DNA of 47,038 nucleotides from Gammaproteobacteria bacterium. GTDB taxonomy: Bacteria > Pseudomonadota > Gammaproteobacteria > Poriferisulfidales > Poriferisulfidaceae. A program made the translations under genes and the position numbers. The notes under the pieces are model-generated. The model saw only the letters and a program-made list of their open reading frames with translations, was not told the DNA's origin and did no database searches. This document shows positions 13,480-46,766 of this stretch, piece by piece; the first letter of the stretch is position 1, and every line of letters begins with the position of its first letter. The stretch is from the NCBI GenBank assembly GCA_026713705.1, contig JAPONY010000004.1:1-47038 (forward strand). Reading direction: 5' to 3'.

Positions 13480-13705
13480 CCTGACTGAAAGGTTGATTTT
13501 GGCTGAAAGCAGCCATCCAGAATTGATATATACAAGCGGGTCCGAGGGGTTTCAGATGTTCTTAGGAATCTAGAGGAATTAGAATATTAAGAAGACCCCC
13601 CCGTTATACCGACTGGAAACCAACCCCATTTAAAGTGATGAAAAATTAAAACCTCAAAATATTTTTCCTCCAACACGCCCCCAACGTTTCAGATAGGCTA
13701 TGCAT

Positions 13706-22412: not shown

Positions 22413-22475
22413 CACTTGGTCTGCCAAAGGATGATCGAGTGGATAAATAATTGATCTTACCCAATGTGGCGCCAA

Positions 22476-22493
22476 CTCTTACTAGAGTGAGAG
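22476..22493. terminator. Hairpin between convergent operons
   Basis: CTCTTAC (22476-22482), a TAGA loop and GTGAGAG (22487-22493) form a stem with one G-T pair in the 172-bp gap between the convergent FGH and sspDCB operons. No T tract follows, so a simple intrinsic terminator is doubtful. Confidence 0.3.
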
Positions 22494-22584
22494 GAGTACA
22501 GACATCTTGACTCAGCCTTGGTTTCTGATCAATTTCGGGGTACAAGATTCGTCTATCCGTGCAGCTGCGAGCGACATCTCTGAT

Positions 22585-23421: not shown

Positions 23422-23423
23422 TA

Positions 23424-27930: not shown

Positions 27931-29124
27931 ATGAAAGCGGTGGATAGCCGAACAATAATTTATTCGGATTATCAAGCAACTACGCCACTTGATCCACTTG
28001 TCGTAGAAAAAATGAATCCCTTGTGGAGTGATTCATTCGGTAACCCGCACTCCAGCGACCACATTGTTGGATGGCAAGCAGCAAAAGTCGTAACCGCCGC
28101 AACCGAGTCAATCGCTACTCTGATCGGAGCTGGTCCTGATGAAGTGATTTTCACATCTGGAGCAACGGAAGCAAATAATCTTGCGCTCCTAGGTCTCGCC
28201 CGCCGCACCATAAAGAAGCGACACCGAATACTCGTCAGTGCTATTGAGCACAAAAGTATATTGGAAACTGCGCAGACATTGGAGAAGCAGATGGGATTTA
28301 CCGTTGACACGATTCCAGTGGACAAGCAGGGAAGAATAGATTTAGGTGCACTTGAAAGACTGCTTGACGAGACGGTTCTCGTTGTGTCGGCTATGGCTGT
28401 CAACAATGAAATTGGGACCATCCAGGACATCCCGAAGATTGCATCGCTTTTGGAATCACACGGTATCCTGTTCCACTGCGATGCGGCACAAGCACCATCT
28501 GCCATGGACTTGCGTGACATCGCAACACATACTGATCTCGCGAGCTTGTCGGCTCATAAAATCTACGGTCCTCAGGGTATCGGTGCGTTATATATCCGTC
28601 GGGACATACAGAATCAAGTTGAGCCATTGATTTACGGTGGAAGCCAGCAGGAGGGATTACGCTCCGGCACCGTTCCAGTTGCGCTGTGTGCGGGAATGGG
28701 AGCGGCCTGCGATATTCTGACTTCCCCGGACATTACTGAGGAACGAATGAGGGTCGCTAAATACCGTGATACATTTGTGGAATTGTTACAGGACAGTTCT
28801 TTCCCCGTCATCGTCAACGGTCCTGATGTGGAAAATCGTCACCCCGGCAATACGAACCTTCAATTTCCTAACTTTGACGCTCATGAAATTCTCGCAGCCC
28901 TACAACCGTGGTTAGCAGCATCTACAGGCTCGGCTTGTACGTCAGGGACCCCCCAACCCTCGCATGTGCTTAACGCGATTGGCCTTACAAAAGATCAAAG
29001 TAAATCCTCCATGCGCTTCAGTTTCGGACGTTTTACTTCCAATGACGAGATTGAAAAAGCAGCATTACTCGTTCATGGAACTCTTGACCATTTAGAAAGT
29101 GAGAGTTACAAGAAATCTGCTTGA
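27931..29124 (+). CDS. sspA: SspA, cysteine desulfurase of DNA phosphorothioation
   Basis: A 397-residue PLP enzyme of the NifS/IscS/DndA family, which takes sulfur from L-cysteine. K210 in SAHKIYGPQG binds PLP, and C336 in the STGSACTSG loop carries the persulfide. Other family marks are the FTSGATEANN segment and HCDAAQA. It is divergent from sspB, the usual arrangement for the Ssp system, and provides sulfur for the SspBCD complex. A general IscS-type role cannot be excluded from sequence alone, but no isc scaffold genes are near. The ATG at 27931 is preceded by ATCGGG; a GTG at 27940 is an alternative. The tRNA-Phe fragment starts 85 bases after the stop. Confidence 0.88.
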   Translation: MKAVDSRTIIYSDYQATTPLDPLVVEKMNPLWSDSFGNPHSSDHIVGWQAAKVVTAATESIATLIGAGPDEVIFTSGATEANNLALLGLARRTIKKRHRILVSAIEHKSILETAQTLEKQMGFTVDTIPVDKQGRIDLGALERLLDETVLVVSAMAVNNEIGTIQDIPKIASLLESHGILFHCDAAQAPSAMDLRDIATHTDLASLSAHKIYGPQGIGALYIRRDIQNQVEPLIYGGSQQEGLRSGTVPVALCAGMGAACDILTSPDITEERMRVAKYRDTFVELLQDSSFPVIVNGPDVENRHPGNTNLQFPNFDAHEILAALQPWLAASTGSACTSGTPQPSHVLNAIGLTKDQSKSSMRFSFGRFTSNDEIEKAALLVHGTLDHLESESYKKSA

Positions 29125-29845: not shown

Positions 29846-30241
29846 CTATATTTGAAACTTTATGTTTGGCAAGGGTTTCATGCCAGTATCTTCGCACCAG
29901 TTGATACGGCCTTTCTTGATCCAGAAATGTGCGTAAGAACCATCAAGTTGTCGTACTGATGGGGTGATAGTTGGGCGCTGCAAAAAGTCGATCAAAACAT
30001 TCCATCGAGGCCTGTGGTTTGGCATGAGAGACAGTTGAATAACTTCATTGCTGTCAGCTGGGCAGCGAAAGTAAGCCCATTTCGGGAACCCTGAGCTTTC
30101 GACGACATAAATCAAACCAACTTCAAGATTGCTTGGAGACGGATGGTCGGCGACGATTCGGACGAGAAGGTCCGGCACGGGAATAATCTGTAACCGGATT
30201 AACAATGTCCGGCAGAATGCCCGGAAAGCTTTCTTCATCAA
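29846..30241 (-). CDS. DUF6527-family protein of the ubiquitin-like operon
   Basis: A 131-residue protein with features I recognise from DUF6527: the KWAYFRCP strand, VIQLSLMP, RPRW, a TITPSVRQ segment and the HFWIKKGRINWC end. The family occurs at the ends of bacterial ubiquitin-like operons next to E1-like genes. Where some relatives, as I recall them, have a CPCGC-type metal knot after the FRC, this one reads FRCPADSNE, so a metal site may be incomplete. It overlaps the end of the JAB-E1 gene by four bases and is the last gene of the operon. Its role is unknown; a processing or ligase-like job is possible. Confidence 0.72.
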   Translation of the reverse strand: MMKKAFRAFCRTLLIRLQIIPVPDLLVRIVADHPSPSNLEVGLIYVVESSGFPKWAYFRCPADSNEVIQLSLMPNHRPRWNVLIDFLQRPTITPSVRQLDGSYAHFWIKKGRINWCEDTGMKPLPNIKFQI

Positions 30242-31659
30242 TCGATTCTCCCAAGAAATGGCTCAGTGTCACCTCGACCCCAGACTGTTTCATTGGCACA
30301 AATGGGACAAGCCGTGTGAGGCTTGTGGCCAGGTCTGCGGTCTTCGCCAAGGTGAAATTTTCGGACACGGTTTGCGATTGCCCCATCAAGGCCACGAAAA
30401 CCCTGCAGGCGATGGATAAGTTCGTTAACAGCCATACAGGCAAGCTCCGTGGTGAAGGTAATGACGGCGGGGTTAGGGTTAGCTTCGCCTATCACGTAAG
30501 CTTCGGCTTTACGCTGTTCATATTCATCCGGGTCGCTGCGGCGCATCGCCTCGGTTCGTGCAATCTCGGAGTCGATAACGCTGCGGCATAGCAAACAGGT
30601 GTGTCGTGGGCCGAGAACAGTTACACGGCCGTCCAAGGCCGTAAAAGACGGGGGAGATCCGTTGTTCAATTCGATTGCAAGGCCGATGTCGATTACTGGC
30701 GTAATGTAGTAATAGGCAAACCGGTTAAGGAACAAGCGGCCTTCGTGATCATCGGTACAGCCAAATATGACATCACAGGACCGAAGTGGGTCACGACATT
30801 CCGGATCGGCGACCCATGCTTCAATCGGAATGGCCCTGATGCCGAGACCCATTTCCGAAATGGTGCGAGCAACAACCTTAGCTTTGGGTCGCATCGCATC
30901 GGCATCGGCCTGACGTGCACCATGGAGGCGATTCAAATTGGTTCGGTCAACGATATCATTATCGATAAGCAAGAGTTGACCGGCGCCAAGTCGTGCGAGT
31001 AGCATTGCGAGTGCACTACCGGTGCCGCCGCAGCCGACAATACCAATCCGCATTTTCTGGAAATCACTGTTTAAGGCATCTCCAAAAGCAAGCGCTTGTC
31101 TATGCAGGGCGGGAATTGATACCCCCTGGTCACGGTTGGGATAGTGGAACTGGTAGTCGATCCCAATGGTGCGTATCATGTCCAGCCGTTCATAGGAATT
31201 CTTTTTGGGTTTCAGCCAAACACGCCCGATGAGTTGCCCGTCAGTTGTTAGGATCAGGCTGATAAGGTTTGTACTTCCACCATTTCGATTGACTGCCATC
31301 TGGATGAGGTCAGGTTCGTTTTGATTGTCTTGTTCCGAGAACCAAGGCATAGCACTTGGGTGGTTATGGACAATGCCAATGACCTGGTTGTTGGCGGCAG
31401 CTTCTTTGAGAGTGTGGACATAAGACACAGTACTCCAAGTAACGAGATGTGGTGTTGATTCAATGACCTGATCATCGGGTACAGGGATAACACGGACAAC
31501 CAAAAACTTTTGGTGAGCGTGTCTGCCCCATGGTTCGTGTCTGACCACTGCGCGATTGCAGAGGATATAGGCGGCGTGTTCGCGACCGTCTACTCGCAAA
31601 AGATGATCTTTCAATTGAGCGAGATGTTCGTCGCGGAGTGTCAGGCTGTAGGTGGTCAT
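30238..31659 (-). CDS. JAB deubiquitinase-like/E1 ThiF-like fusion protein
   Basis: A 473-residue fusion. Residues 1-160 are a JAB/MPN metalloprotease domain with the full JAMM motif: E27, H98-N-H100-P-S102, S108 and D111. Residues 190-470 are an E1/ThiF/MoeB-like adenylating domain with the nucleotide loop GCGGTG (209-214), an acidic LIDNDIVD strand, NLNR, and a DVIFGCTDDHEGR segment. Two CxxC pairs (CLLC at 355-358, CPIC at 451-454) are suited to structural zinc. One protein thus can adenylate a ubiquitin-like C terminus and cleave isopeptide bonds. It overlaps the E2-like gene and DUF6527 gene by four bases each. No cysteine outside these motifs is an obvious E1 catalytic one. Confidence 0.9.
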   Translation of the reverse strand: MTTYSLTLRDEHLAQLKDHLLRVDGREHAAYILCNRAVVRHEPWGRHAHQKFLVVRVIPVPDDQVIESTPHLVTWSTVSYVHTLKEAAANNQVIGIVHNHPSAMPWFSEQDNQNEPDLIQMAVNRNGGSTNLISLILTTDGQLIGRVWLKPKKNSYERLDMIRTIGIDYQFHYPNRDQGVSIPALHRQALAFGDALNSDFQKMRIGIVGCGGTGSALAMLLARLGAGQLLLIDNDIVDRTNLNRLHGARQADADAMRPKAKVVARTISEMGLGIRAIPIEAWVADPECRDPLRSCDVIFGCTDDHEGRLFLNRFAYYYITPVIDIGLAIELNNGSPPSFTALDGRVTVLGPRHTCLLCRSVIDSEIARTEAMRRSDPDEYEQRKAEAYVIGEANPNPAVITFTTELACMAVNELIHRLQGFRGLDGAIANRVRKFHLGEDRRPGHKPHTACPICANETVWGRGDTEPFLGRID

Positions 31660-32036
31660 CGTGTAATCTCCCAGGCATATTCAATCCGCTTAATCATGGT
31701 CCAGATGCCATCAATCCCAGGCCGCCAATCATTATTGTGGCGAGACCACCGTTGCCATTTTTGGCCACCAAAGTTGAATGGCTGGTCAGCCTGAGGTGGA
31801 TATAGCTTTGTTGCCACCGACTTGACCCAAGGCAATAAATAAAACATATCAGGGGCTACATCTGCATAGCCTCGCGGAAGTTGAATTAATACGTCAACTT
31901 CTTCTTGGTCAAAGCGGCCAACGGGTAACGACTGCTCTTTGAGAATCACCGCTTTTTTGCCATTGTCCTCAACCTCTTCGAAGGATATGCCCTTCGAGAT
32001 CAAGTATTCACGGTCACGGTCTGGTAAAAAGTTCAA
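31656..32036 (-). CDS. E2/UBC-like protein (Prok-E2_E type) without cysteine
   Basis: A 126-residue protein resembling prokaryotic E2 family E: the LPDRDREYL start, VDVLIQLPRGYADVAPDMFYL core, the KWQRWSRH segment and the WRPGIDGIWTMI helix. E2 enzymes normally carry the ubiquitin-like protein on a Cys; this product contains no Cys at all, so it cannot form a thioester itself. I placed the start at a TTG, seven bases after a GGAAGGG ribosome-binding site inside the last codons of the Ubl gene. The frame is open upstream to 32252, but that part only overlaps the Ubl gene in another frame. The stop overlaps the JAB-E1 start. Confidence 0.82.
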   Translation of the reverse strand: MNFLPDRDREYLISKGISFEEVEDNGKKAVILKEQSLPVGRFDQEEVDVLIQLPRGYADVAPDMFYLLPWVKSVATKLYPPQADQPFNFGGQKWQRWSRHNNDWRPGIDGIWTMIKRIEYAWEITR

Positions 32037-32050
32037 GCGGCTACCCTTCC
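32034..32050 (-). promoter_or_regulatory. Ribosome-binding site deciding the TTG start of the E2-like gene
   Basis: On the minus strand GGAAGGG (32050-32044) lies in the last codons of the Ubl gene, seven bases before TTG (32036-32034). It fixes the E2-like start just after the Ubl stop (32043-32041) and predicts coupled translation. Confidence 0.6.
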
Positions 32051-32295
32051 GTGGTGGTTTTCTTTCCTGTGAAGAAACGTTTCTCACCCGGCTTGTCAAG
32101 ATCGACACTGTCGTCATTCTTGATCGGAACGTCTTCGGGTCCCGGCACATCTTGCCAAGCATCGTAGGTGTTGGGGTCGACGCCAGCGAGTTCTTTGATT
32201 TCGAGGCCCGTGATAGACGGTTTAGGCCATTCGTGTTGCTTTTGGTCAACAATGATCTCGAATGGCTTGTCGTGGTAATCGTTCTTGTTAGTCAT
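32041..32295 (-). CDS. Single-domain multiubiquitin-family Ubl protein
   Basis: An 84-residue member of the bacterial multiubiquitin (Multi_ubiq) family. A beta-grasp fold is expected; visible marks are the SITGLEIKELAGVD helix-strand segment, TYDAWQDVPGPEDVPI and the FFTGKK tail. Family members often carry several repeats; this one has a single domain. The protein ends with TTTEG and then the stop, so a C-terminal Gly is exposed without processing, as required for adenylation by an E1. It lies between the DUF2188 gene and the E2-like gene. The ORF starts at an ATG with AGGAGA upstream. Substrates of conjugation are unknown. Confidence 0.87.
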   Translation of the reverse strand: MTNKNDYHDKPFEIIVDQKQHEWPKPSITGLEIKELAGVDPNTYDAWQDVPGPEDVPIKNDDSVDLDKPGEKRFFTGKKTTTEG

Positions 32296-32655: not shown

Positions 32656-33378
32656 TTAGACGCTAGAAAGCGCTTGGCCAGTGGTAACTTCGGTAAGAGA
32701 ACCGAGTTTTAGAAGGCGAATGCGGGCAGCATCTTCGGATACTTGAAATGTAGTTTGCACGGAATGGATAAGGGCACGCCCTTGTGGGTCGTCGACATTA
32801 ATCGCTCCACAGAGTTCCTCCGTTTTTTGGTGGTCTTTGACAATTTTCTGAATCTGGGAAATGGGCATGAGCAGTGCGCCACACGCATAACCTGCCTGCC
32901 ACTCCATCCAGTCGGCCTGAGTAGAGTCAAGTATGCTTTCACGCTTGCAGATTTGGGTGTCTGCATTTGAGGCGCACCCTAAAAGATCAGGAGGGGCCTG
33001 CCCGAGCTCCCAAAGATAAGCATGGAAGTGAACATGACCGTATTCGTGGGTGAGGGTGGTTCGTAGTCGGTTTTCGCGCCTGCCGTCTCCAGCCAGCGCT
33101 GCCGAAATTTTTACTAATGGCTTATGACCAGTGCGAAAAATAGTGAGGCCTTCAACTCCCGAACCATAAGGTGAAAGATCTGCATAAAGATCAAGACTTT
33201 CAGTATCGCGTTCAATCAAACGGGTTAAGTCGCCTGTTGAAATAGGAAAACGTAATTCACCGTTGCGGTCTTTGAGGAAAGAGTTAATTATGCCTTCACA
33301 TTCTTGATCCAATTCTTCAGGTTTGTAGTGTGGGCGTTGCAAAAATCTGCCTGTGCGGTCGGAGACATATTTAACCAT
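32656..33378 (-). CDS. ImmA/IrrE-family metallopeptidase
   Basis: A 240-residue protein with the zinc motif HEYGH (in LTHEYGHVHFH) and the C-terminal DWMEWQAGYACGALLMP segment typical of ImmA/IrrE peptidases. These cytosolic proteases cleave or disable a partner Xre repressor in response to stress or DNA damage. Its ATG shares a base with the stop of the Xre-like gene directly upstream, the usual arrangement of such pairs. Its likely target is that regulator, and through it the operon that follows. It is read from the same strand as the ubiquitin-like operon but separated from it by 114 bp with an own promoter candidate. Confidence 0.88.
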   Translation of the reverse strand: MVKYVSDRTGRFLQRPHYKPEELDQECEGIINSFLKDRNGELRFPISTGDLTRLIERDTESLDLYADLSPYGSGVEGLTIFRTGHKPLVKISAALAGDGRRENRLRTTLTHEYGHVHFHAYLWELGQAPPDLLGCASNADTQICKRESILDSTQADWMEWQAGYACGALLMPISQIQKIVKDHQKTEELCGAINVDDPQGRALIHSVQTTFQVSEDAARIRLLKLGSLTEVTTGQALSSV

Positions 33379-33713
33379 CAGCGAGACCTCTCTTTGCTTG
33401 ACGTGCGTCGAAAAGCAACCATCCCCGCTGTGAAATCTTTTTCAGAAAGTTTTTTCCCCCTAGAGTTTTGGAGAAACCGACCGGCAAGATAAGCAAGCCA
33501 TTCTGCATCAAGGTCTAGGGCTTGGGCAAATTGTTTAACCATGCGATCAGATGAAGGATGTCGGCGATCATGTTCAATGTCGTTTAAGTATTGCGGAGAG
33601 ATCGGGCATCCATCTTCTTTTTGTATGTGCGCGACGAGATCTTTTAGTGTCCAATTTTTTTCTTTCCTAGCGTTGCTGATGGCACGACCGAATGTTTTGG
33701 GGTCTGAATGCAT
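33378..33713 (-). CDS. Xre-family helix-turn-helix regulator
   Basis: A 111-residue DNA-binding protein. Residues 8-70 form a Cro/C1-type helix-turn-helix (FGRAISNARKEKNW, LKDLVAHI, PQYLNDIEHDRRHPS). The C-terminal part is basic and short. The ATG at 33713 follows AGAGG with five bases between. It overlaps the ImmA-like gene by one base, and a perfect dyad (33745-33760) lies just upstream of it. Such a pair usually forms a repressor with its inactivating peptidase. It is transcribed away from tRNA-Phe. Confidence 0.87.
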   Translation of the reverse strand: MHSDPKTFGRAISNARKEKNWTLKDLVAHIQKEDGCPISPQYLNDIEHDRRHPSSDRMVKQFAQALDLDAEWLAYLAGRFLQNSRGKKLSEKDFTAGMVAFRRTSSKERSR

Positions 33714-35837: not shown

Positions 35838-36371
35838 CTATCGGCGTGCGACCAGTTGCGCCTGTCCGTCCTGTTCGAGAGAGTGGAGAATTTCCCAGTT
35901 TTCGCAATATCCGGATAGTTCCCCGGGACGCAGCAGAAAGTCGGGGTTGCGGGGTCCCGGGCCGGAGTGGCCGACCAGGAAGGTCTGGTAATAGAGCAGT
36001 CCCCCCGAGCGTACCGCGGCAAGCAGGGCCGGCATCAAACCGCGATCCAAGAAATGGCTGACCACCAGCAGGTCAAACTGTTCCGCCTCCGGCGGTTCGA
36101 GCACAATATCCCGGACTTCGGCCTGAATGGCGAGGTGATGTTTTTCCGCTTCCGCGCACAGGTACCGGATCCCGGTCTCGGAGTAGTCCCAGGCATGGAC
36201 GGTCAGTCCTCGGTGTGCCAGCCATAGCGCATTGCCACCCCGCCCACAGGCAAGATCCAGCGCCTGTCCCTGCTGCGGCAGGTGCTCGGAGTGCTGTCGC
36301 AAGACCGCGCAGGCTTGGGGTTCGTTCAGGACCTCGCGATGGCGAGTGTCCCAGAGATCCGGTGAGCCCAT
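35838..36371 (-). CDS. Class I SAM-dependent methyltransferase
   Basis: A 177-residue methyltransferase of the TehB/UbiE-like Rossmann type. Motif I is LDLACGRGGNALWLA, an Asp (HAWDYSETG) at the second strand holds the ribose, and FDLLVVSHFLDRG is motif IV. The N-terminal WDTRHREV segment matches small tellurite-resistance-like methyltransferases. The ATG overlaps the trkH stop by one base (TAATG), so it belongs to the trk operon. The substrate is not known. The longer frame upstream only covers trkH in another frame. Confidence 0.82.
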   Translation of the reverse strand: MGSPDLWDTRHREVLNEPQACAVLRQHSEHLPQQGQALDLACGRGGNALWLAHRGLTVHAWDYSETGIRYLCAEAEKHHLAIQAEVRDIVLEPPEAEQFDLLVVSHFLDRGLMPALLAAVRSGGLLYYQTFLVGHSGPGPRNPDFLLRPGELSGYCENWEILHSLEQDGQAQLVARR

Positions 36372-37837
36372 TACCGGCGCCAGAACGCCGGGGTCAGGAT
36401 TACCAGCAGGGTGAAGACTTCCAGGCGACCGAATATCATGCTGGCGCACAACAGCCATTTGCCGAAGTCGCTGACCGAGGCGTAGTTTTGGCTGACTTCT
36501 CCAAGTCCGGGGCCCAGGTTGTTGAGGGTGGCACCCACCGCCGAGAACGCGCTGACCTGGTCCAGGCCGGTCATCATCAACAGCAGGAAAAGGACAGTGA
36601 ATGTGGTGATATAGGCGGCGAAAAACCCCCAAACCGACTGCAGGGCACTCTGCGTCATCACGCGGTCTCCGACCCGAACCGTGACTTGCACGGTGGGGTG
36701 GATGATTCGATACAGTTCCTTCCCGCTATGCTTGACCATCAGCAAAAAGCGGATCACCTTCATCCCGCCGCCGGTGGAGCCGGCGCAGCCGCCGATGAAA
36801 CTGGCAAGCAACAGCAGCGTGGAAACGAAGGCAGGCCAGTGGTCGTAGCCGGTGGTGGTGAAGCCGGTGGTGGTAGCAATTGACACGGTCTGGAACAGTC
36901 CGTGGCGCACGGTTTCGAGGGGATCGCTGTAGAAAGAGGTGGCCCACAGGTAACTAATGCAGATGGCGCCCACCGAAGCCAATACCAGGGCATAGGTCCG
37001 GAATTCCCCGTTTCGGCTGTACGGCTGCAGGCTGCGCCGGCTCAGGGCGAGGTAATGCAGCCCGAAGTTCGCGCCCGCCATGATCATGAAAATGATCGCG
37101 ATCATTTCGATCAAGGCGCTGTCAAAATAACCGAGATTTGCGTCGTGGGTGGAAAAGCCGCCGATGGCTATGGTGGAGAATGCATGGCAGATGGCATCCA
37201 GCGGGCTCATGCCGGCCCCCCAGTACGCGAGCCCACAGGCCGCGGTCAGGGCGAAGTACAGATACCAGAGAACCTTGGCTGTTTCAGCGATGCGCGGAGT
37301 CAGGCGCCGTTCGGTCAAGGAGTGCGGCGCTTCGGCCTGGACCAGTTGCACGCCGCCCATGCCGACCAGGGGCAGGATTGCCACCGCCAGCACGATGATG
37401 CCGAGGCCGCCGGCCCACTGCAGGAACTGGCGGTAAAACAGGATGGAGGAGGGCATGTCGTCCAGGCCCGACAACACGGTTGCGCCGGTCGTGGTCAACC
37501 CAGAGACCGCTTCGAACACGGCATCGGTTCCGCTGAGTTGTAGGTAGGGAGAAACGTACAAGGGGATGGAGCCGGCCAGCCCCAGGCCGATCCAGAACAA
37601 TGAAACGACCACAAACCCGTCTCGCAGCCGCAGCGGCTGTCGGCGTGGGGCACGGTGTGCGGCCTGAACCCACAAGGCGGTGCCGAGAAGGAACAGCAAG
37701 AAGAATGCGTACAGGAACGAGAAGGCCTCGCCGTCGTCCACAATCAGGCTCAAGGCCAAGGGCGGCAACATGCCGAGGCTGAAAAATGTCAGCAGGTAGC
37801 CGAGCAGGCGCTGGACAACCCGATACTGGATAGGCAT
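36371..37837 (-). CDS. trkH: Trk potassium uptake protein TrkH
   Basis: The 488-residue inner-membrane potassium channel subunit. It has the repeated membrane-pore-membrane units of TrkH, with filter-like segments such as GLTTTGATV, AFSTIAIGGFSTH, TTTGFTTTGY and SAVGATLNNLGPG. TrkA lies three bases upstream and should gate it by NAD(H)/ATP binding. The methyltransferase gene overlaps its stop. The start at 37837 gives the standard N-terminal MPIQYRVVQRLLGY. Confidence 0.95.
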   Translation of the reverse strand: MPIQYRVVQRLLGYLLTFFSLGMLPPLALSLIVDDGEAFSFLYAFFLLFLLGTALWVQAAHRAPRRQPLRLRDGFVVVSLFWIGLGLAGSIPLYVSPYLQLSGTDAVFEAVSGLTTTGATVLSGLDDMPSSILFYRQFLQWAGGLGIIVLAVAILPLVGMGGVQLVQAEAPHSLTERRLTPRIAETAKVLWYLYFALTAACGLAYWGAGMSPLDAICHAFSTIAIGGFSTHDANLGYFDSALIEMIAIIFMIMAGANFGLHYLALSRRSLQPYSRNGEFRTYALVLASVGAICISYLWATSFYSDPLETVRHGLFQTVSIATTTGFTTTGYDHWPAFVSTLLLLASFIGGCAGSTGGGMKVIRFLLMVKHSGKELYRIIHPTVQVTVRVGDRVMTQSALQSVWGFFAAYITTFTVLFLLLMMTGLDQVSAFSAVGATLNNLGPGLGEVSQNYASVSDFGKWLLCASMIFGRLEVFTLLVILTPAFWRR

Positions 37838-37840
37838 GGG

Positions 37841-39202
37841 TCAGAAAAATGTAGCGCTGACCTGGAACAGTCGCTCGACATCCTTCAGGTATCGCTTGTC
37901 GCTGATGAACAAGATCACGTGGTCGTCGGGTTTGATCGTGGTGAGCGCGTTCGGCAGAATCATTTCGCCGTCGCGAACCAGTGCGGCGATGTCGACGCTG
38001 GCCGGCAGATTGAGTTGTCCGATCGGCTGGCCGATTGCGGCCGCCGTGTGATGGGCCTTGGCTTCCAGTGCTTCAGCGCGTCCGCGCCGCAGTGAGTGTA
38101 CCGCCAGAACATCGCCTCGACGGATGTGTGTCAACAGTTCGCTCAGCGTGGCTTGCTGGGGGGAGACCGCGATGTCGATGGAGCGTTCGATCAGGTCGAT
38201 GTAGGAGGGACGGTTGATCAGGGCGATCGTGGTGGGCACACCCATGCGTTTGGCCTGCATGGCCGACAGGATGTTGGCTTCCTCGTTATTGGTCAATGCA
38301 CAGAAGACATCCATATCCCGGAGGTTCTCGTCCAGTAGCAACTTGTCGTCCGTCGCGTCTCCCTGGAGCACCGTTGCCCGGGTCAACTGCTCCGACAAGT
38401 AGCGCGCGCGGTATTCATTGTGCTCGATGATCTTGACGTGGCAGTCCGATTCCAGCTGCGCTGCGACACCGTGGCCGACATTGCCGCCCCCTGCAATCAG
38501 CACATGACGGCTCCGGCCGGGCTGGGCCCGCAGTTTTTCCACGACGGTATTGAGCTGGTCCGTGCGCGTGAGGACGAAGATTTCGTCATGCGCCTTGAGG
38601 CGCAGTTCAGGATCCGGCTTCAGGGCCTGCTGGTCGCGGTAGACGGCGGCCACGTGCAACTGGACGTCGGGGATGCTGTGGTGTAGGTCAAGCAGATTGC
38701 GGCCGGCAGCCGGAGCACCGGGGGAGATGCGGACCACGGCAAGCTGCGCCAAACCATCTGCGAATTCAAGTACCTGGAGCGCACCGGGTCGACGGATCAG
38801 TCGCTCGACGCTGCGCGCGGCGATCTGCTCCGGGCTGATCAGGACGTCGATGGGCAGGGCTTCCGTCATGAACAGGTTGCCATGTATCAGGTATTCCGAA
38901 GCCCGTACCCGGGCGATTCGCTGGGGCGTGTTGAACAGGCTGTAGGCGACCTGGCAGGCGATCATGTTGACCTCGTCGCTCCGGGTCAGCGCTACCAGCA
39001 TGTCGGCGTCTTCGGCACCGGCCTGCTGCAGGATGTTGGGGTGCGCCCCATTGCCGCACAGGGTGCGCAAGTCGACGCGGTTGCCGACGTTGCTCAGGTT
39101 CCGTTCTTCCAGGTCGACCAGCGTGATTTCGTTGTTTTCCTGCGCCAGTCCGATGGCCAGTGAACTGCCGATCCGGCCCGCTCCGAGAATGATGATTTTC
39201 AT
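37841..39202 (-). CDS. trkA: Trk system peripheral protein TrkA
   Basis: The 453-residue cytosolic RCK protein that regulates TrkH. Two Rossmann-type NAD-binding units are visible: ILGAGRIGSSLA at the N terminus and AGGGNVGHGVAAQLE in the second half, each followed by a TrkA-C domain, as is usual for the full-length gammaproteobacterial form. The gene lies 25 bp downstream of ntrX and three bases upstream of trkH. ntrYX-trkAH is a known gene order in several proteobacteria. Confidence 0.95.
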   Translation of the reverse strand: MKIIILGAGRIGSSLAIGLAQENNEITLVDLEERNLSNVGNRVDLRTLCGNGAHPNILQQAGAEDADMLVALTRSDEVNMIACQVAYSLFNTPQRIARVRASEYLIHGNLFMTEALPIDVLISPEQIAARSVERLIRRPGALQVLEFADGLAQLAVVRISPGAPAAGRNLLDLHHSIPDVQLHVAAVYRDQQALKPDPELRLKAHDEIFVLTRTDQLNTVVEKLRAQPGRSRHVLIAGGGNVGHGVAAQLESDCHVKIIEHNEYRARYLSEQLTRATVLQGDATDDKLLLDENLRDMDVFCALTNNEEANILSAMQAKRMGVPTTIALINRPSYIDLIERSIDIAVSPQQATLSELLTHIRRGDVLAVHSLRRGRAEALEAKAHHTAAAIGQPIGQLNLPASVDIAALVRDGEMILPNALTTIKPDDHVILFISDKRYLKDVERLFQVSATFF

Positions 39203-39227: not shown

Positions 39228-40577
39228 TCAATTGGAGGGTTCCCGCGGGCGTTCGATGCCGAGGTCGCGCAACTTCCGGTACAGGTAGGTCCGCTCCATG
39301 TGGGTGCTGTCGGACAGTCGCTTCATGCTGCCCCCGCTTTGTTCGATTTGAAATTGGTAGTACATCTGCTCGAACCGGGCTCGGGCTTCCCGATAGGGGA
39401 GTCCCATCAGGTTTTCCAGTCCCCCGGGGAGGGTATCGCTCTGCGGTGCCGGGTGCAGCAGATGGTCGACTTCCACCAGGCCGACTTCGGCTCCGTCCCC
39501 GCTGATCAGGAGTTGATAGACAAGGCGGCGCAGTTCATGCATGTTGTCTGGCCAGTCGTACTTGCACAGTGCCTCCATCACATTCGGTGGAAAACTGCGC
39601 ATGGGCAGATTTTCCCGCGCACAGTAACGGGCGGCGTAGTGCTCGATCAATTCCGGAATGTCCCGGGTCCGTTCGCGCAATGGCGGGAGCACCAGCGTGT
39701 AGGGTGCCAGCTGGGCATACAGCGCGGGGTCCAGAATATTTGAGGCCAGTGCCATTTCGGGTCTCTGGTGCAGGGTGGCGATGAGCTGTACGTCGATGGG
39801 TGTCGCGGTGCCGTTTCCTTGCAGGAGGTGGCGGTTTTCAAGCACGGAGAGCAGGCGTTTCTGGGTTTTGACCGTCAGCTGATCCAGCGGGTTCATGAAC
39901 AGGGTGCCGCCATGTGCCTCGAGTAGCAGACAGGTCCCGTTGTTCGGGGTTTCTTCCAGTAGTCGCTGGTTCAGGTTTTGGCCGCTGCCGATGACAAGCT
40001 GCCAGTGATGGCGGGTGCCGTTGTAGTGGATGTGGTTGGCGAGTGCCAGGAATTCGCAACCAGGTTCGCCGAGGATCAGGACCGGGTTCCCGTCGTCGCC
40101 GAACGCTTGCGCTTGCTCCCGCAAGCGGCGGATCTCCGGGCTGTTGCCGACCAGCTGCTCGGTGGCGGCCGAATCTTCGGATAGGATCCGGTTTTGCTGG
40201 CGCAGGCGATAGGTTTCCAGCGCCCGCGACACGCTCAGCAGCAACTTGTCCATGGCGAAAGGCTTTTCCAGGTAATGCCAAGCCCCAAGCCGGGTGGCCT
40301 CCAACGCGGTTTCGATGTTGCCGTGCCCGGACATCATGAGGATAGGAAATTCCGGGGCGTCATCATGGCGCCATGACCTGAGCAGGCTCATCCCGTCCTC
40401 ACCCGGCATCCAGATGTCCAGCAGCGCCAAGTCTACCGGTTGTTGACGAACAAGTTTGCGGGCAGCAGAGGCGGAATCGGCTTGCAGGACCCGGTAGTCG
40501 TGATCGGACAGGATATCTCGGATCTGAGCCCGGATATCGGACTCGTCATCGATGATCAGGATGGTTTCGCGACTCAT
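39228..40577 (-). CDS. ntrX: NtrX-like response regulator with degenerate AAA+ domain
   Basis: A 449-residue NtrX-type regulator: receiver domain at 1-120 (phosphoacceptor D54 in LLDIWMPGEDG), AAA+ region at about 143-360 and a C-terminal helix-turn-helix near 415-440. The AAA+ part is damaged for a sigma54 activator. The Walker A site reads GEPGCEFL (170-177) with no Lys, the Walker B region reads GGTLFMNPLD (223-232) with Asn in place of the catalytic acidic residue, and no GAFTGA loop is visible. The second half of the domain (RERTRDIPELIEHY) is kept. Its ATG overlaps the ntrY stop in an ATGA. It may act as a DNA-binding regulator independent of ATP hydrolysis. The start is the ATG at 40577; the frame extends to 40646 inside ntrY. 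Confidence 0.88.
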   Translation of the reverse strand: MSRETILIIDDESDIRAQIRDILSDHDYRVLQADSASAARKLVRQQPVDLALLDIWMPGEDGMSLLRSWRHDDAPEFPILMMSGHGNIETALEATRLGAWHYLEKPFAMDKLLLSVSRALETYRLRQQNRILSEDSAATEQLVGNSPEIRRLREQAQAFGDDGNPVLILGEPGCEFLALANHIHYNGTRHHWQLVIGSGQNLNQRLLEETPNNGTCLLLEAHGGTLFMNPLDQLTVKTQKRLLSVLENRHLLQGNGTATPIDVQLIATLHQRPEMALASNILDPALYAQLAPYTLVLPPLRERTRDIPELIEHYAARYCARENLPMRSFPPNVMEALCKYDWPDNMHELRRLVYQLLISGDGAEVGLVEVDHLLHPAPQSDTLPGGLENLMGLPYREARARFEQMYYQFQIEQSGGSMKRLSDSTHMERTYLYRKLRDLGIERPREPSN

Positions 40578-42844
40578 GCCACAGCTGCTTGGCTCTGAAC
40601 TTCTTGCGAAGGCTCTGGGGATGCGTCGAACTCGATTTCCACGCATCCGCCTCCCGTCGGGTCATTGTATACGCGAATCCGCCCTTGGTGATCCTCCGTG
40701 ATCCGGTACACCACGGCAAGCCCCAGGCCGTTTCCGCTGGGTTTTGTGGTGACGTAGGGCTCGAAGGCCCGGGCAATGATCTCCGGCGCAAAGCCGGGCC
40801 CGGTATCCCGCACTTTCAGGGTGACTACGCCTTCCTGCATCTCGGTGCTTAGGATGATGGTGCCCTCCGTTTGCTCTTCCTGGGCTTCCAGTGCGTTCTT
40901 GATGAGATTGTGCAGCAACTGGCGGATACGTCCCGGATCTCCATGGATCCAGGCGGGAGCCTCGCTCAGTTCAGCACGAATAGAGATTTTGGATTTATTT
41001 TCTATGTACAAATCAAGGATTTCCGTGCTCAAGGCGTTCAGATCCAGTAATTCCGGTGTGAAGCGGGCGGCAGAGTATTCGCTGAATTCGTCGATCATGG
41101 ATTTCATTGATTCCACCTGCCGTACGATGGTCTGCGTGGCGCGTTGCAGGATCTCGGAATCTTCCGTGGCGAGGTGAGGCTGGATGCGGTTCTGCATCCG
41201 TTCGACCGAGAGGCGAATGGGGGTCAGCGGGTTCTTGATCTCGTGAGCCAGCCGCCGGGCCACCTCGCCCCAAGCCGCTTGACGCTGCGCCTGTTGCAGG
41301 TCCGTGATGTCCTCGAATAACACCACGTAACCGGCACCCTGCGGCAACTGTGCGCCATGACAATGCAGCACCTTGAGTTCGTTGTTGATCTGCAATTGCC
41401 GCCGGAGGTCGGTGACACTGTATTGTTGGCGATCCATTAGATCCCACAGTGGTTCCAGCTGGGGATGCTCCTGGCGCAGGACAGAAAGAGGCTGTTTGAT
41501 GTAATGCTCGATATTCAGGTTCAGGATAGAACCGGCGGCTTGGTTGGCGGTAATCACCTCACCGCGGTCGTCGACGCTAATGACGCCGGAGGACAGGTGC
41601 TCAAGGACCGTGTGCAGATAGGTATGCTGCTGTTCGATCATCAGGCGGCGGGTTTCCGCCACGTACCGGGCGTTAGCCAGGCGTTCGATCATGTCATTGT
41701 AGGAATGCACCATCTGGCCCAATTCGTCGCGACGTCCGGCCGGAAGGCGCTGGCTGTATTCGCCGGCCGCCACGGCCTCGATTCCGCGCGCAAGTTCCGA
41801 AATCGGCGACAGGATTCGCTGAGCCGAGTACAGGGCTGCCCACATCGCGAACAGGAGTCCCAGCAGGAGTGCCAGGGACATCACGAAGGTGAGGCTGTAC
41901 TTCAAGGGGTCACGCTGTTCCAGGAGTGACTGGTAAGTGACGGAGGCCTTTTCGACGCTGTCAGTCAGGCCGAGCATGTATTCCGACACCGGGTACAGGA
42001 TCTGCAGGGTCAGGAGCAGTTCCTGATTCGTTAGAGGCAGTTCCTGATCCAGAGTCAGGGACAGCTCTTGGTCCAGGGTCAGAGGCAGGGGCAGCCCCTG
42101 ATCCGTCAGGGACAGTTCCCGATTGACTGATGGGACCTGCATCAGAATGCGGATAATCGTGCCATGCTCCGGGTGTTCTTCCCGAGCCATGTAGATGCCG
42201 CTTTCGCTTTCCTTCAGCAACTGTAGCTGGGCCTCGCCTGGCAGGTCCGGCAGGATATCCGACACTTCTCCCTGGGAGGCAATGATCTTGTTGTTTGAAT
42301 CCAGCAAAGTCGCTTCCAGCGCACCCGTTTGAACGACCAAGTTATGCATGCGTACAACCATCGCCTCGGGATCGCTGATATCGACGGGTTCCTGCAACAG
42401 GCGCTCTGCCTGCGCACTCCGCTCCCGCATTTGCATGTCGATCGAGGTTCGGCTTAATTCCATCGCCTTGTTCAAGGTGTCGTCAACGCCCACATCGAAC
42501 CAGCTGTCGATGCCGCTGGAAATCAGCCACACCGAGAAACCAAACACCATCGCAGTCGGAATCAATGTAAAACTGGCGAACATGCCGGACATGCGCAGCG
42601 ACAAGCGTGATCCGGCCTCGCGGCGGCGCAGCCTCTGGATCAAGCGGGAAAGGCTGAGACCGATCAATGCCAGAAGCGTCAGGGCCAGCACGCCGTTGAA
42701 ACCTGCCACCCACCATTGCCAACGGTGGAAATGACCGGAACTTTGGGTCGCCTCGGCCATAATGGCCAGCGAACCGACCAGCAGCAGGAACATGCCGATG
42801 ACCGGCCAAGGGCCGGCCAGGAACCATCTCAGGGCAGGTGCCAT
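40574..42844 (-). CDS. ntrY: NtrY-like sensor histidine kinase
   Basis: A 756-residue membrane kinase. Order: two transmembrane segments near 12-32 and 50-66, a third near 88-110, a sensor region (about 110-315), a transmembrane helix near 318-340, a HAMP domain (about 340-395), a PAS domain (about 405-515), the H box with H534 (RLAHEIKNP) and a catalytic ATPase domain (NLIKNALEA, DTGPGFAP, GNGLGLA). It phosphorylates the NtrX-like partner encoded just downstream, with which it overlaps. A run of degenerate 7-8-residue units rich in Leu-Thr-Asp-Gln-Glu lies at 243-280 in the sensor region. The first 16 bases overlap the DUF4390 gene. Confidence 0.93.
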   Translation of the reverse strand: MAPALRWFLAGPWPVIGMFLLLVGSLAIMAEATQSSGHFHRWQWWVAGFNGVLALTLLALIGLSLSRLIQRLRRREAGSRLSLRMSGMFASFTLIPTAMVFGFSVWLISSGIDSWFDVGVDDTLNKAMELSRTSIDMQMRERSAQAERLLQEPVDISDPEAMVVRMHNLVVQTGALEATLLDSNNKIIASQGEVSDILPDLPGEAQLQLLKESESGIYMAREEHPEHGTIIRILMQVPSVNRELSLTDQGLPLPLTLDQELSLTLDQELPLTNQELLLTLQILYPVSEYMLGLTDSVEKASVTYQSLLEQRDPLKYSLTFVMSLALLLGLLFAMWAALYSAQRILSPISELARGIEAVAAGEYSQRLPAGRRDELGQMVHSYNDMIERLANARYVAETRRLMIEQQHTYLHTVLEHLSSGVISVDDRGEVITANQAAGSILNLNIEHYIKQPLSVLRQEHPQLEPLWDLMDRQQYSVTDLRRQLQINNELKVLHCHGAQLPQGAGYVVLFEDITDLQQAQRQAAWGEVARRLAHEIKNPLTPIRLSVERMQNRIQPHLATEDSEILQRATQTIVRQVESMKSMIDEFSEYSAARFTPELLDLNALSTEILDLYIENKSKISIRAELSEAPAWIHGDPGRIRQLLHNLIKNALEAQEEQTEGTIILSTEMQEGVVTLKVRDTGPGFAPEIIARAFEPYVTTKPSGNGLGLAVVYRITEDHQGRIRVYNDPTGGGCVEIEFDASPEPSQEVQSQAAVA
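42005..42118. repeat. Degenerate tandem repeat in the ntrY sensor region
   Basis: About five imperfect copies of a 21-24-bp unit, encoding variants of ELSLTLDQ (ELSLTDQ, LTLDQ, ELSLTLDQ, ELPLTNQ, ELLLTLQ). The copies keep the reading frame. Such short in-frame repeats can gain or lose units by slippage. Confidence 0.6.
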
Positions 42845-43380
42845 CGGACTGCTCCACTTTGCCAGTCCAGGGGCTGGCTTCGGGCCGACCCGATCGAGGG
42901 TGCCATGGGCATCGGGTTGGCGTAGAGGCGTGCCCGTACTTCACCTTGGTATTGCTCGAGTTCTGGCAGCAGCCAGTCGAGGCGTGTCACCGGTATGGCG
43001 TTCAGCACCCGAAGTCGGGACAAGGCATCGGCCAGGTTCGGAAGAGTCTGTTGTTCCTGCTGATTGACGCGGGCGACCTGGTAGACGTTGTGCAGGGGAT
43101 CATACGAGAGGCGTTGGAGGATATGAAGGCGGCCGACCGGCTGCTGGCCGAACAGGGGACGCTTTTGAGCCAGGGTGATTTCGATTTCCAGCCAGATTTC
43201 CCCGCGCAAAAGCGCGCGTGGAATCTCGGATCCGGAATCGTCGATTTCCAGTTCCAGGTCCAACAACACGGTTTGCGCGGCTTGATGGCTCGTGACGGAG
43301 GCAAGAGCCAGCTCCGCCCGGGCTGGACTGACGCACAGCAGTACGCCGAAAAGCAGCAGCGGAAGCCAGAATGCGCGCAT
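42829..43380 (-). CDS. DUF4390-family secreted protein
   Basis: A 183-residue protein with a signal peptide ending in SPARA near residue 22. The rest is a mixed alpha/beta protein with few cysteines and the FGQQPVGRLHILQRLSYD segment of DUF4390. The family lies between fmt/rsmB and ntrY in many gammaproteobacteria; its function is unknown. I used the ATG at 43380 because it opens the signal peptide; the frame to 43440 adds an unlikely segment. Its end overlaps the ntrY start by 16 bp, so they are co-transcribed. Confidence 0.82.
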   Translation of the reverse strand: MRAFWLPLLLFGVLLCVSPARAELALASVTSHQAAQTVLLDLELEIDDSGSEIPRALLRGEIWLEIEITLAQKRPLFGQQPVGRLHILQRLSYDPLHNVYQVARVNQQEQQTLPNLADALSRLRVLNAIPVTRLDWLLPELEQYQGEVRARLYANPMPMAPSIGSARSQPLDWQSGAVRWHLP

Positions 43381-43432
43381 AAAAGATTTTCCGTGTCCCA
43401 AACATCCGTAGTGTAACAATCCCGACACCTTG

Positions 43433-44365
43433 TTACGCAAGCTGCAGACCCGTCAGGGGACGGGCATTGCAGAAGTCCTGCGCGGACATCCGCCGCCCAC
43501 CGGCCCGTTGCAGCTCGGCGATTTGCACCTGTCCCTCGCCGCATGCAACCCACAAGCCGGTTGGATCGCAACGCAACACCTTACCTGCCGGCTCGGCGGT
43601 CTGCGTCGAGTGCGCTTGCGCCTGCCACAGCCGCAGGGTTTCGTCGCCACACCGGGTGGTGGCGACCGGATGAGGATTGAAGGCGCGGATCTTGGCCGCG
43701 ATTCGAGTGGCCGGATTGGCCCAGTCAATAGGGGCCTCGTTCTTGCGGAGGGCAGGCGCATGACAGGCCTGCGTCTCGTCCTGCGGTTGTCGTGCCGGGT
43801 GCTTCGGGTCGAAGTCGGACAAGTACCGCAACAGCAAATCGGCGCCCAACGGGGCCAGCCGGGCTCGGGCCGAGGCCGCGGTCTCGTCGGGAGCGAAAGG
43901 AATGGCTTCCTGGGCCAGGATGTCGCCGGTATCCAAGCCCGCATCCATGAGCATGATGGTGCAGCCGCCTGTCGAATCACCGGCTTCGACAGCACGCGCT
44001 ATCGGTGCCGCTCCGCGCCATCGCGGAAGCAGAGACGCATGGATGTTCAGGCTGCCGCCCGGGCACAGCCAAAGCCAGGATTCGGGAATCAGCCGCCCGA
44101 AATCCGCCACCACTAGGGCATCCGCATGGTGCGACGCAAGTTCATCGCATACTGAAGCGTCCAGCGCGTCCGGTCGCAGTAGCGGCAGGCTCGCGCCCAA
44201 GGCGATTTCCGAGACGGGAGTAGGGCGCAACTTCAGACGCCGACCAGCTGGTCGGTCCGGTTGCGACAGGACTGCACAGAGAGTATGGTTACTGGCCTGC
44301 AGGCTCTCGAGCGCCGCCGCGCCGAAAGGCCCGCTCCCGGCGAAGATCAGCCGCAGGGAAGCCAC
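43433..44365 (-). CDS. fmt: Methionyl-tRNA formyltransferase
   Basis: The 310-residue enzyme puts a formyl group on initiator Met-tRNA from 10-formyl-tetrahydrofolate. LIFAGSGPFG opens the Rossmann fold, LSQPDRPAGR holds the tRNA loop region, and the NIHASLLPRWRGAAPI block (about 107-122) with N107 and H109 is the catalytic signature; D144 lies in LMDAGLDTGDI. The start is a GTG at 44365, the only candidate of normal length. def lies 10 bp upstream. The rsmB gene that commonly follows fmt is missing. Confidence 0.95.
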   Translation of the reverse strand: MASLRLIFAGSGPFGAAALESLQASNHTLCAVLSQPDRPAGRRLKLRPTPVSEIALGASLPLLRPDALDASVCDELASHHADALVVADFGRLIPESWLWLCPGGSLNIHASLLPRWRGAAPIARAVEAGDSTGGCTIMLMDAGLDTGDILAQEAIPFAPDETAASARARLAPLGADLLLRYLSDFDPKHPARQPQDETQACHAPALRKNEAPIDWANPATRIAAKIRAFNPHPVATTRCGDETLRLWQAQAHSTQTAEPAGKVLRCDPTGLWVACGEGQVQIAELQRAGGRRMSAQDFCNARPLTGLQLA

Positions 44366-44375
44366 GGGATGGGAA

Positions 44376-44921
44376 TCAGGCGTGAATGTAGGACTCCGGG
44401 CGTTGGGTCCGCTTCGGAAGTTGCCCGGTGCGCGCCAGTTTCCGCAGTTTTTCAGCCACGCGTTCGCGCTTGAATGGTGAGAGGTAGTCGACGAACAGTT
44501 TTCCGTTGAGATGGTCGATCTCGTGCTGGATGCAAACGGCGAGCAGGTCGTCGGCCTCGATCTCGAATTCCTCGCCTTTCTCGTTCAGGGCGCGGCAGCG
44601 GATCTTCTCGGCGCGTTGCACCAGTGCCCGGAATTCCGGGACCGACAAGCAGCCTTCTTCCATTTCCTCGGTGCCTTCGGTTTCGAGGATCTCCGGATTG
44701 ATCAGGCACATCGGTTCGCTGCCGTCCTCGCTGAGGTCGATGACCACGATGCGCTGCGGGATGTTGACCTGTACAGCCGCCAGGCCGATCCCGAATTCGT
44801 CGTACATGGTCTCCAGCATGTCGGAGACAATGCGCCGGGTCTCGTCCGTTACTTCGGCAACGGGCTTGGCCACCGTGCGCAGGCGCGGGTCCGGAAAGCA
44901 GAGGACTTCAAGTTTTGCCAT
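44376..44921 (-). CDS. def: Peptide deformylase
   Basis: The 181-residue iron/zinc enzyme removes the formyl group from new proteins. All three motifs are intact: GIGLAAVQ (44-51), EGCLSVPE (89-96, metal ligand C91) and HEIDH (133-137, ligands H133 and H137). I used the ATG at 44921 rather than a TTG five codons upstream because MAKLEVL is the usual start. It forms an operon with fmt. The length is slightly above the usual 168-170 residues, with a basic C-terminal tail. Confidence 0.96.
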
Positions 44922-44998
44922 GTTTTTGCAGCGCAATCTCTCTTAACAATTATATGGGTTTTGACACATCAGGATTCAATGTGGCAGGTAAGGGCAGG

Positions 44999-46043: not shown

Positions 46044-46766
46044 TCAGGTCTTTCTGGGGAAGGTCGAGTGGAATGCCTGCCGGGCAAGGGCGCGGCCGGC
46101 GTCCATGGCTTTGCTGTCGTCGACGTCCCAGTGGACGCCTCCGTAGATACGGCTGAGCCCGTTTTCTTCGGCCATGTGGCTCAGGCTGGTCCAGTGCCGG
46201 GTGACGCCCCTCAACTGCGGCCAGATCACCTCGTCGGGCGAGCGGCCGGAGAAGGCAACGTCGTCGCGGCCGTAGATCAACGCGATCATCTCGGCGGCTG
46301 CGGCACCGAAAGTGCTGTGGCCCGAGGTGTAGGAGGGGAATTCGGGGGTCGGGATGTAGCTTCGCCAATCGGGCTGAAGGACGACTCTTGGATCCGGGTT
46401 GTTGAATTTCGGGGCCCGCACGCGGATCGCGCTTTCCGGGCGGAGCACGTCGTAGTGGTATTTTGTATCCCATGCGCAGATCGAGGAGTCGCACTGCGTC
46501 ATGCCGATCAGGGCGAAGGCACGGGCGAGCTCGATGAAGCTGAGGTTCCGTTCCTGCAGCAGCTGCACGGCGATATAGAGGAAATGCCCCGGCGGCGTGA
46601 TGCCCCAAGGCCCGTCCTCCCAGAACAGGGCGATTTCCGACTGGTCGGCGGTCCGCAGGGTGCTGTCTTCTCCCCCGAGGCGGCGGGCGGAGTCGAATGC
46701 CTCAGCAAATTCCGGGCTTGCCGGATCATAGAATTCGGTACAGCGGAACTGCGCGCAGCCTTTCAT
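46044..46766 (-). pseudogene. Truncated vanadium-dependent haloperoxidase-like (PAP2) gene
   Basis: A 240-residue reading frame with the conserved PAP2/vanadate site: KYHYDVLRPESA, PSYTSGHSTFG and SRIYGGVHWDVDD supply the Lys, Arg, Ser-Gly-His and Arg/His ligands. Complete vanadium haloperoxidases are about 400 residues or more, and their N-terminal helical half is missing here. The frame remains open upstream to a TGA near 46917 but has no start codon there, and it encodes plausible family sequence (a GQIKPW segment) directly before the Met at 46766. The gene is therefore probably a 5'-deleted remnant. It is separated by only three bases from the broken barrel gene. Confidence 0.7.

Follow-up and report, generated by a model that had tools for sequence, protein, structure and literature searches.

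How does a lineage drop sigma54 and yet keep one member of the sigma54-activator family? The question is raised by the ntrX gene (Table 1) in a 47,038-nucleotide stretch of gammaproteobacterial DNA, hereafter the window (contig JAPONY010000004.1). We compared the genome of the window (G000) with four congeners carrying ntrX (G001–G004), a further congener (G005) in which no ntrX match was found at E ≤ 1e-60, and a genome from another family of the same order (G007). The congener genomes are drafts, 95–98% complete except for G005 (76%), and G004 is a single 1.59-Mb contig; genomes in this genus are small.

An NtrX protein with a dead AAA+ domain

Pfam recognised the receiver (Response_reg, 97.8 bits) and AAA_lid_14 (56.2 bits), and matched the sigma54-interaction domain weakly at 56–59 bits (Sigma54_activ_2, 59.3; Sigma54_activat, 56.3). 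The best NCBIfam model was NF051870 (NtrX), with 301 bits over residues 5–441; as this lies below the curated cut-off of 600, the protein is not named NtrX by that model. The receiver retains the D10/D11 acidic pair, Asp54, Ser83 and Lys105. The helix-turn-helix (HTH) was recognised by alignment (ERTYLYRKLRDL against ERTHLYRKLRxL), HTH_8 being uncalled by Pfam even at E ≤ 1 and called in 4/4 relatives tested. Receiver residues and HTH signature were intact in 6/6 genomes inspected (G000–G004, G007).

The middle domain was examined in two alignments, one setting this NtrX beside 29 further NtrX or bEBP proteins and one of 126 distinct NtrX sequences with three bEBPs. The Walker A motif GEPGTGKELVA has become GEPGCEFLALA, the Lys being substituted and not merely shifted, and Walker B has changed from LFLDE to LFMNP. 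The GAFTGA region is deleted, and in place of FREDL..RL stands LDPALYAQLA, with both arginine fingers gone. Here we take the second Arg in FREDL..R to be the second arginine finger, the finger positions being assigned partly from general knowledge, and the Arg of GNxRE to be sensor II. The roles of Walker A, the Walker B Glu, the arginine fingers and the L1 loop in bEBPs are set out in a review (PMC7175178).

The preliminary description of this locus had reported a dead AAA+ domain, from the absence of the Walker A Lys, the Walker B acidic residue and GAFTGA, beside a retained receiver and DNA-binding domain. Alignment confirms these absences, and the two flanking domains are indeed kept, the receiver by Pfam and the HTH by alignment. 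The loss goes further than was claimed, as both arginine fingers and the sensor-II Arg are also missing. Aligning NtrX of related genomes, as had been proposed, showed the loss to be common to 4/4 congeners with the gene, which share all motif changes at 92–93% protein identity. No intact motifs were placed elsewhere in the protein by the alignments. A frameshift or assembly artefact is ruled out, because G001–G004 carry the same changes in open frames without stops, and all five genomes thus agree in frame and in these residues.

Table 1 Features of the ntrX locus in the window
Feature	Position	Strand	Evidence
ntrX (REC + pseudo-AAA+ + Fis-type HTH response regulator, 449 aa)	39228..40577	minus	ORF, Pfam, NCBIfam, alignment; syntenic in G001–G004
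Receiver domain, residues 1–122	40212..40577	minus	Pfam; dN/dS 0.02–0.06
Phosphoacceptor Asp54 codon	40416–40418	minus	receiver residue inspection
Pseudo-AAA+ alpha/beta core, residues 140–300	39678..40160	minus	Pfam, alignment, predicted fold; dN/dS 0.04–0.09
Former Walker A, residues 170–180, GEPGCEFLALA (Gly-Lys replaced)	40038..40070	minus	alignment
Missing L1 loop (GAFTGA) site, residues about 208–216	39930..39956	minus	alignment
Former Walker B, residues 224–234, GTLFMNPLDQL (Asp-Glu to Asn-Pro)	39876..39908	minus	alignment
Former arginine-finger segment, residues 282–291, LDPALYAQLA	39705..39734	minus	alignment
AAA+ lid, residues 301–378	39444..39677	minus	Pfam, alignment
Former sensor-II motif, WPGNVREL to WPDNMHEL, sensor-II Arg lost	39531–39554	minus	alignment
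Fis-type helix-turn-helix, residues 393–442	39252..39401	minus	alignment; dN/dS 0.02–0.09
ntrY, membrane histidine kinase, 4-bp overlap with ntrX	40574..42844	minus	ORF and profile match; H, N, G1, G2 boxes intact
plrP-like DUF4390 gene, start codon uncertain	42829..43440	minus	PF14334, 53 bits
fmt	43433..44365	minus	profile match
def, ORF upstream start; ATG of MAKLEVL at 44921	44376..44936	minus	ORF and profile match
TATAAT, sigma70-type -10 match upstream of def	44949..44954	minus	upstream-region comparison, present in 5/5 genomes
trkA, 25 bp after ntrX	37841..39202	minus	ORF and profile match; synteny
trkH	36371..37837	minus	ORF and profile match; synteny

Graded loss of ATPase residues across NtrX

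The NtrX set was drawn from relatives' genomes and 80 named loci by similarity to the NtrX of the window or to profile A1, and is not a random sample. It held 162 sequences, of which 27 failed a C-terminal NtrX signature and 9 were removed as duplicates, leaving 126 distinct sequences. Those removed by the signature include L074 and L081, whose position is NtrX-like and in which GAFTGA is likewise missing, as well as L085, whose loop reads GAFAGA. Each protein was scored for six residues: Walker A Lys, Walker B Asp and Glu, two arginine fingers and sensor-II Arg.

GAFTGA was found in none of the 126 orthologues (0/126), the 26 alphaproteobacterial ones included, yet NtrX proteins are annotated as nitrogen-assimilation activators of sigma54, which this loop contacts. 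All six ATPase residues were present in 26/26 alphaproteobacterial NtrX, which thus differ from the NtrX of the window in keeping Walker A, Walker B, both fingers and sensor II, compared with 7/100 of the others. These 100 rows are nearly all gammaproteobacterial and include four of the genus and one Burkholderiales metagenome-assembled genome (MAG). Among them the Walker A position holds Lys in 69 and Arg in 23 more, Walker B retains Asp in 44 and Glu in 57, and the first finger, second finger and sensor II are kept in 86, 12 and 81, respectively. The genus rows score 0 in three cases and 1 in one (G004, with an Arg at the second-finger position), and the Burkholderiales protein (L090) scores 0. 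The more residues are lost, the less the AAA+ domain resembles the family relative to the receiver (Spearman 0.61); the AAA/REC identity ratio is 0.52–0.53 in the genus, against a median of 0.77 in the other 96 rows.

Judged from these aligned residues, the genus is the end of a gradient from an intact to a wholly dead ATPase and no lone oddity. The rarity of a dead AAA+ domain implied in the preliminary description does not hold, with the loop absent throughout and ATPase decay widespread among gamma-like NtrX. Loss of GAFTGA in NtrX and loss of the AAA+ domain in betaproteobacterial NtrX are already reported: a table in PMC5744179 gives the Thioalkalivibrio protein as lacking the loop, a passage of PMC10274813 says the same of Caulobacter NtrX, and part of PMC13001219 describes beta NtrX without the domain altogether. 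The protein of the window therefore sits between the ATPase-bearing alpha NtrX and the domain-less beta NtrX. No report of graded ATPase loss in NtrX was found in the literature searched, and the graded gamma-like proteins form a natural gradient in which to study the role that an AAA+ domain retains in a regulator after losing its motor.

The Burkholderiales MAG (L090, 6001–7224) encodes a 418-aa NtrX with a dead-looking AAA+ domain (GTPGCAFEACA, RDV; best Pfam match PF14532, 118 bits). This domain looks to have died independently, and is a possible intermediate toward the AAA+-less beta NtrX. We do not claim a sister relation of this protein to the genus, as our quick NtrX tree, in which the stem branch of the genus is long (1.69), warns of long branches meeting.

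Sigma54 and other activators in the genus

No rpoN was found by PF04552 in 6/6 genomes of the genus (G000–G005) or in G007, nor by PF04963 in the same seven genomes. As controls, PF04552 detects rpoN in E. coli, 34/55 relatives and 308/370 genomes of the class. No other sigma54-activator protein (bEBP) was found in G000–G004. PF00158 matched only NtrX and ClpB in G000, and besides NtrX gave comparable weak second matches or none in G001–G004; in G007 it matched NtrX (score 1) and two further proteins weakly. As far as sequence models can tell, the sole bEBP-family protein recognised in the genus and in G007 is thus an NtrX from which most or all ATPase residues have gone. The statement that this regulator is unable to serve as a normal sigma54 activator has strong support, with all its ATPase and sigma54-contact elements gone and rpoN and other bEBPs not found in G000–G004.

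One strong PF00158 match in G005 was not counted as a counter-example. It lies in a contig-end ORF (G005:C78, L173 4843–6000, minus strand) that joins part of an ABC-transporter ATPase to a canonical, GAFTGA-bearing bEBP, and was taken as a likely misassembly.

A strong NtrX match without detected rpoN was seen in few genomes (G000, G001, G057, G100, G195, G217, G259 and G308). In two of these, G100 and G217, NtrX keeps 5/6 residues; as these genomes have 13 and 11 PF00158 matches, rpoN may have escaped their draft assemblies. G057 (L145, L169), which is 99% complete and has no rpoN by both models, encodes an NtrX scoring 3 along with two further proteins that match PF00158 strongly.

Loss of sigma54 as the simple cause of AAA+ decay was rejected, since erosion is strong (1/6) in NtrX proteins L012, L019, L020, L021 and L024 despite rpoN in the genome, and is not strong in G100 and G217. 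The likelier order is that NtrX was uncoupled from sigma54 before rpoN was lost. The GAFTGA loop would already have been absent from NtrX, as in all examined; the ATPase residues would then have drifted in gammaproteobacteria that still had sigma54; and lastly, when rpoN and the bEBPs disappeared from the genus, NtrX would have been the only one kept because it had ceased to depend on sigma54.

Selection and predicted fold of the dead domain

Selection was estimated by domain from the seven congener pairs whose dS exceeded 0.3. The AAA+ core (residues 140–300) gave dN/dS of 0.044–0.088, the receiver 0.018–0.060 and the HTH 0.020–0.091, with looser values in the lid (0.061–0.165) and in linker 379–392 (up to 0.39). 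Measured against G000, the neighbouring genes gave 0.085–0.153 (fmt), 0.084–0.136 (ntrY), 0.059–0.101 (def) and 0.043–0.052 (trkA), so that the core equals or falls below fmt, def and ntrY. No indels occur in the first 448 codons of ntrX across five genomes.

The AlphaFold2 model, built from a 45-row alignment, has a pLDDT of 88.9 and a pTM of 0.60; the AAA+ core and lid are complete and the placement of the domains relative to one another is uncertain. Among the Foldseek matches listed, the best were three Brucella NtrX entries, one with ADP, one with ATP and one whose title names no nucleotide. VIA-align superposed the model on the AAA+ domain of FlrC with Z 27.2 and an rmsd of 1.8 over 234 residues. 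Pfam, predicted structure and fold matches agree on a bEBP-type AAA+ fold. Strong purifying selection and a normal predicted fold argue that the dead core is kept as a scaffold, which is the best reading of a dead motor whose modelled fold appears intact and constrained.

A putative ATP-independent regulator of sigma70 promoters

We consider it likely that NtrX is an NtrY-phosphorylated, ATP-independent regulator of sigma70-type promoters with a pseudo-AAA+ middle domain. It would be the response regulator of an NtrY–NtrX(–PlrP) two-component system, its middle domain probably keeping the bEBP fold after losing every element for ATP binding, ATP hydrolysis and sigma54 contact. NtrY would phosphorylate Asp54 of the receiver, which may change, by way of the AAA+/lid scaffold, how dimers or oligomers pack, and the C-terminal HTH would then bind DNA, activating or repressing sigma70-type promoters without ATP. 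We infer the phospho-control of DNA binding and the sigma70 promoters, as well as the order of events given above and any target gene.

The nearest structural likeness is to Brucella abortus NtrX (PDB 5m7n, 5m7o and 5m7p), which, at 31–32% identity, shares domain order, fold (VIA-align Z 28.9 over 427 residues) and the partner NtrY. The Brucella protein differs in having been crystallised with ATP and with ADP, according to the PDB titles. For function, the closest parallels are GAFTGA-less regulators of sigma70 promoters, the Rhodobacter capsulatus NtrC and VpsR type, with which the NtrX of the window shares the lost L1 loop and a kept receiver. Passages of PMC10274813 describe NtrC of R. capsulatus and Caulobacter as lacking the L1 loop and serving sigma70-type promoters, and similar action is presumed here. 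They also set the two apart, as R. capsulatus NtrC needs ATP binding and Caulobacter NtrC keeps the needed AAA+ residues, whereas the NtrX of the window has no ATP site left. Vibrio cholerae VpsR (PDB 7v2b; fold match Z 25.0) is, in the same passages (which print both VspR and VpsR), a GAFTGA-less bEBP that works at sigma70 promoters without ATP; it binds c-di-GMP (PDB title), whereas the genus yielded no GGDEF protein. A further precedent is Ehrlichia NtrX, which part of PMC9937504 places in a cell whose sigma factors are sigma70 and sigma32 alone, without sigma54. The earlier suggestion that NtrX may act as a sigma70 regulator can be upheld as the likeliest mode by elimination and precedent (PMC10274813, in part).

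Gene cluster, promoters and potassium uptake

The genes are transcribed in the order def, fmt, DUF4390 (plrP-like), ntrY, ntrX, trkA and trkH, which is the same in 4/4 congeners checked. The H, N, G1 and G2 boxes of NtrY are present in G000–G003; in our pattern check the N-box was unmatched in G004, as were the H- and N-boxes in G007. Among relatives, ntrY adjoins ntrX in 41/44 loci. A comparable cluster, rsmB-plrP-plrS-plrR-trkA-trkH with a DUF4390 partner, is described for Bordetella in part of PMC13001219, where genetics suggest that the DUF4390 protein PlrP restrains phosphatase activity of the NtrY-type kinase. Beta NtrX/PlrR differs in lacking the AAA+ domain, of which the NtrX of the window keeps the fold, and the cluster in the window is without rsmB. 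This gene, usual in the cluster of other gammaproteobacteria, is missing between fmt and plrP (about 43433) in G000–G004, the fmt–ntrX distance being 2.9 kb here against about 4 kb in other gammas. The rsmB model matches only over its first 120 positions in these five genomes, probably to nusB.

The preliminary description had also proposed comparing sigma54 and sigma70 sites in the targets of NtrX. No sigma54 -24/-12 site with up to one mismatch was found in the window (0 against 1.9 expected). The TATAAT before def, present in five genomes, fits sigma70-type transcription of the cluster start. A two-hexamer consensus promoter scan of the window found one match against 2.0 expected and did not pick up this TATAAT. 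The NtrX pattern GCAn9TGC, proposed for Rhodobacter, Brucella, Sinorhizobium and Neisseria in part of PMC7240162, occurs 23 times in the window against 19.3 expected, which is no enrichment. It is absent upstream of mraZ in 6/6 genomes. The mraZ upstream regions of five congeners (L181–L185) carry repeated TGGAAT/TGGAAA boxes just upstream of the gene, presumably MraZ's own operator.

Coupling to K+ uptake through trkAH had been suggested as well, and the adjacency is real; K+ control did not find similar backing, gene order being its sole basis. That NtrX chiefly regulates its own cluster and K+ uptake is in our view unlikely. The kept cluster order and the 3–25 bp gaps flanking trkA in the window favour it, as does a promoter probably shared by plrR, trkA and trkH inside plrS of Bordetella (PMC13001219, in part), but co-transcription differs from regulation. 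NtrX-type sites upstream of def and within 300 bp upstream of ntrX and trkA were isolated single-genome matches, none conserved in five. Among loci with enough flank, trkA follows ntrX in 28/48 gamma-like and 7/25 alpha cases; the link is old and common, being found in 28 of the 48 whatever the AAA+ state, and optional, being found in only that many. In Bordetella, part of PMC13001219 reports that trkAH can be deleted without the persistence defect seen in a plrS mutant.

Alternative roles and fates of the pseudo-AAA+ domain

The dead domain might have gone beyond a scaffold and become a pseudoenzyme with a novel function, serving as a rigid platform for oligomerisation or protein docking that evolved after the break with sigma54. 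We give this extension only a modest chance; candidates for docking would be RNA polymerase–sigma70, NtrY or some metabolite that is not c-di-GMP. If true, such a platform gave a two-component regulator that made loss of the whole sigma54 system possible.

Rather less probable is repurposing of the domain as a ligand sensor, by analogy with c-di-GMP on FleQ and VpsR, which would make NtrX a two-input regulator. Structures of both proteins are among the Foldseek matches listed, constraint is strong, and residues 146–187 around the former Walker A are invariant across five genomes; with 14% of sites variable, however, 42 unchanged residues in a row are not unusual enough to count alone. A VpsR/FleQ-like c-di-GMP input is unlikely because no GGDEF domain was matched in 6/6 genomes by a search that was positive in 8/14 controls, and no alternative ligand is proposed.

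We regard it as very unlikely that the domain is decaying like a pseudogene, free of selection after sigma54 loss and heading for deletion as in beta NtrX (PMC13001219, in part). Such a fate would agree with the missing rpoN and bEBPs, with the AAA+ domain being the least conserved part of the protein against gamma relatives and with the long stem branch; it is largely refuted by a core dN/dS as low as that of the housekeeping neighbours, and further opposed by the indel-free frame and the confident, intact predicted fold. Partial relaxation in the looser lid and linker is possible.

That sigma54 is present but missed in gaps of these drafts, with NtrX serving it non-canonically, is barely credible: a GAFTGA-less Caulobacter NtrC does raise sigma54-dependent transcripts when its HTH is mutated (PMC12421884, in part), but two models found no rpoN in 6/6 genomes, the single-contig G004 included, and neither another bEBP-like protein nor -24/-12 sites in the window were detected.

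Other features of the window

PADLOC identified an Ssp-type phosphorothioation defence locus at 13700–27786, with SspF, SspG and SspH on the plus strand and SspD, SspC and SspB on the minus strand. It is followed by a class-V aminotransferase (27931–29124, plus strand), perhaps a desulfurase partner. Next to the Ssp locus lies a two-gene ubiquitin-like operon (30238–32252, minus strand) of a Prok-E2 family E protein (31656–32252) and a ThiF E1 with a JAB domain (30238–31659), which resembles a bacterial E2-E1-JAB defence cassette. On the same strand, 32656–33713 holds an XRE-type HTH gene and then an ImmA/IrrE-like (Peptidase_M78) gene with a one-base overlap, and 46044–46766 encodes a PAP2/vanadium-haloperoxidase-like protein.
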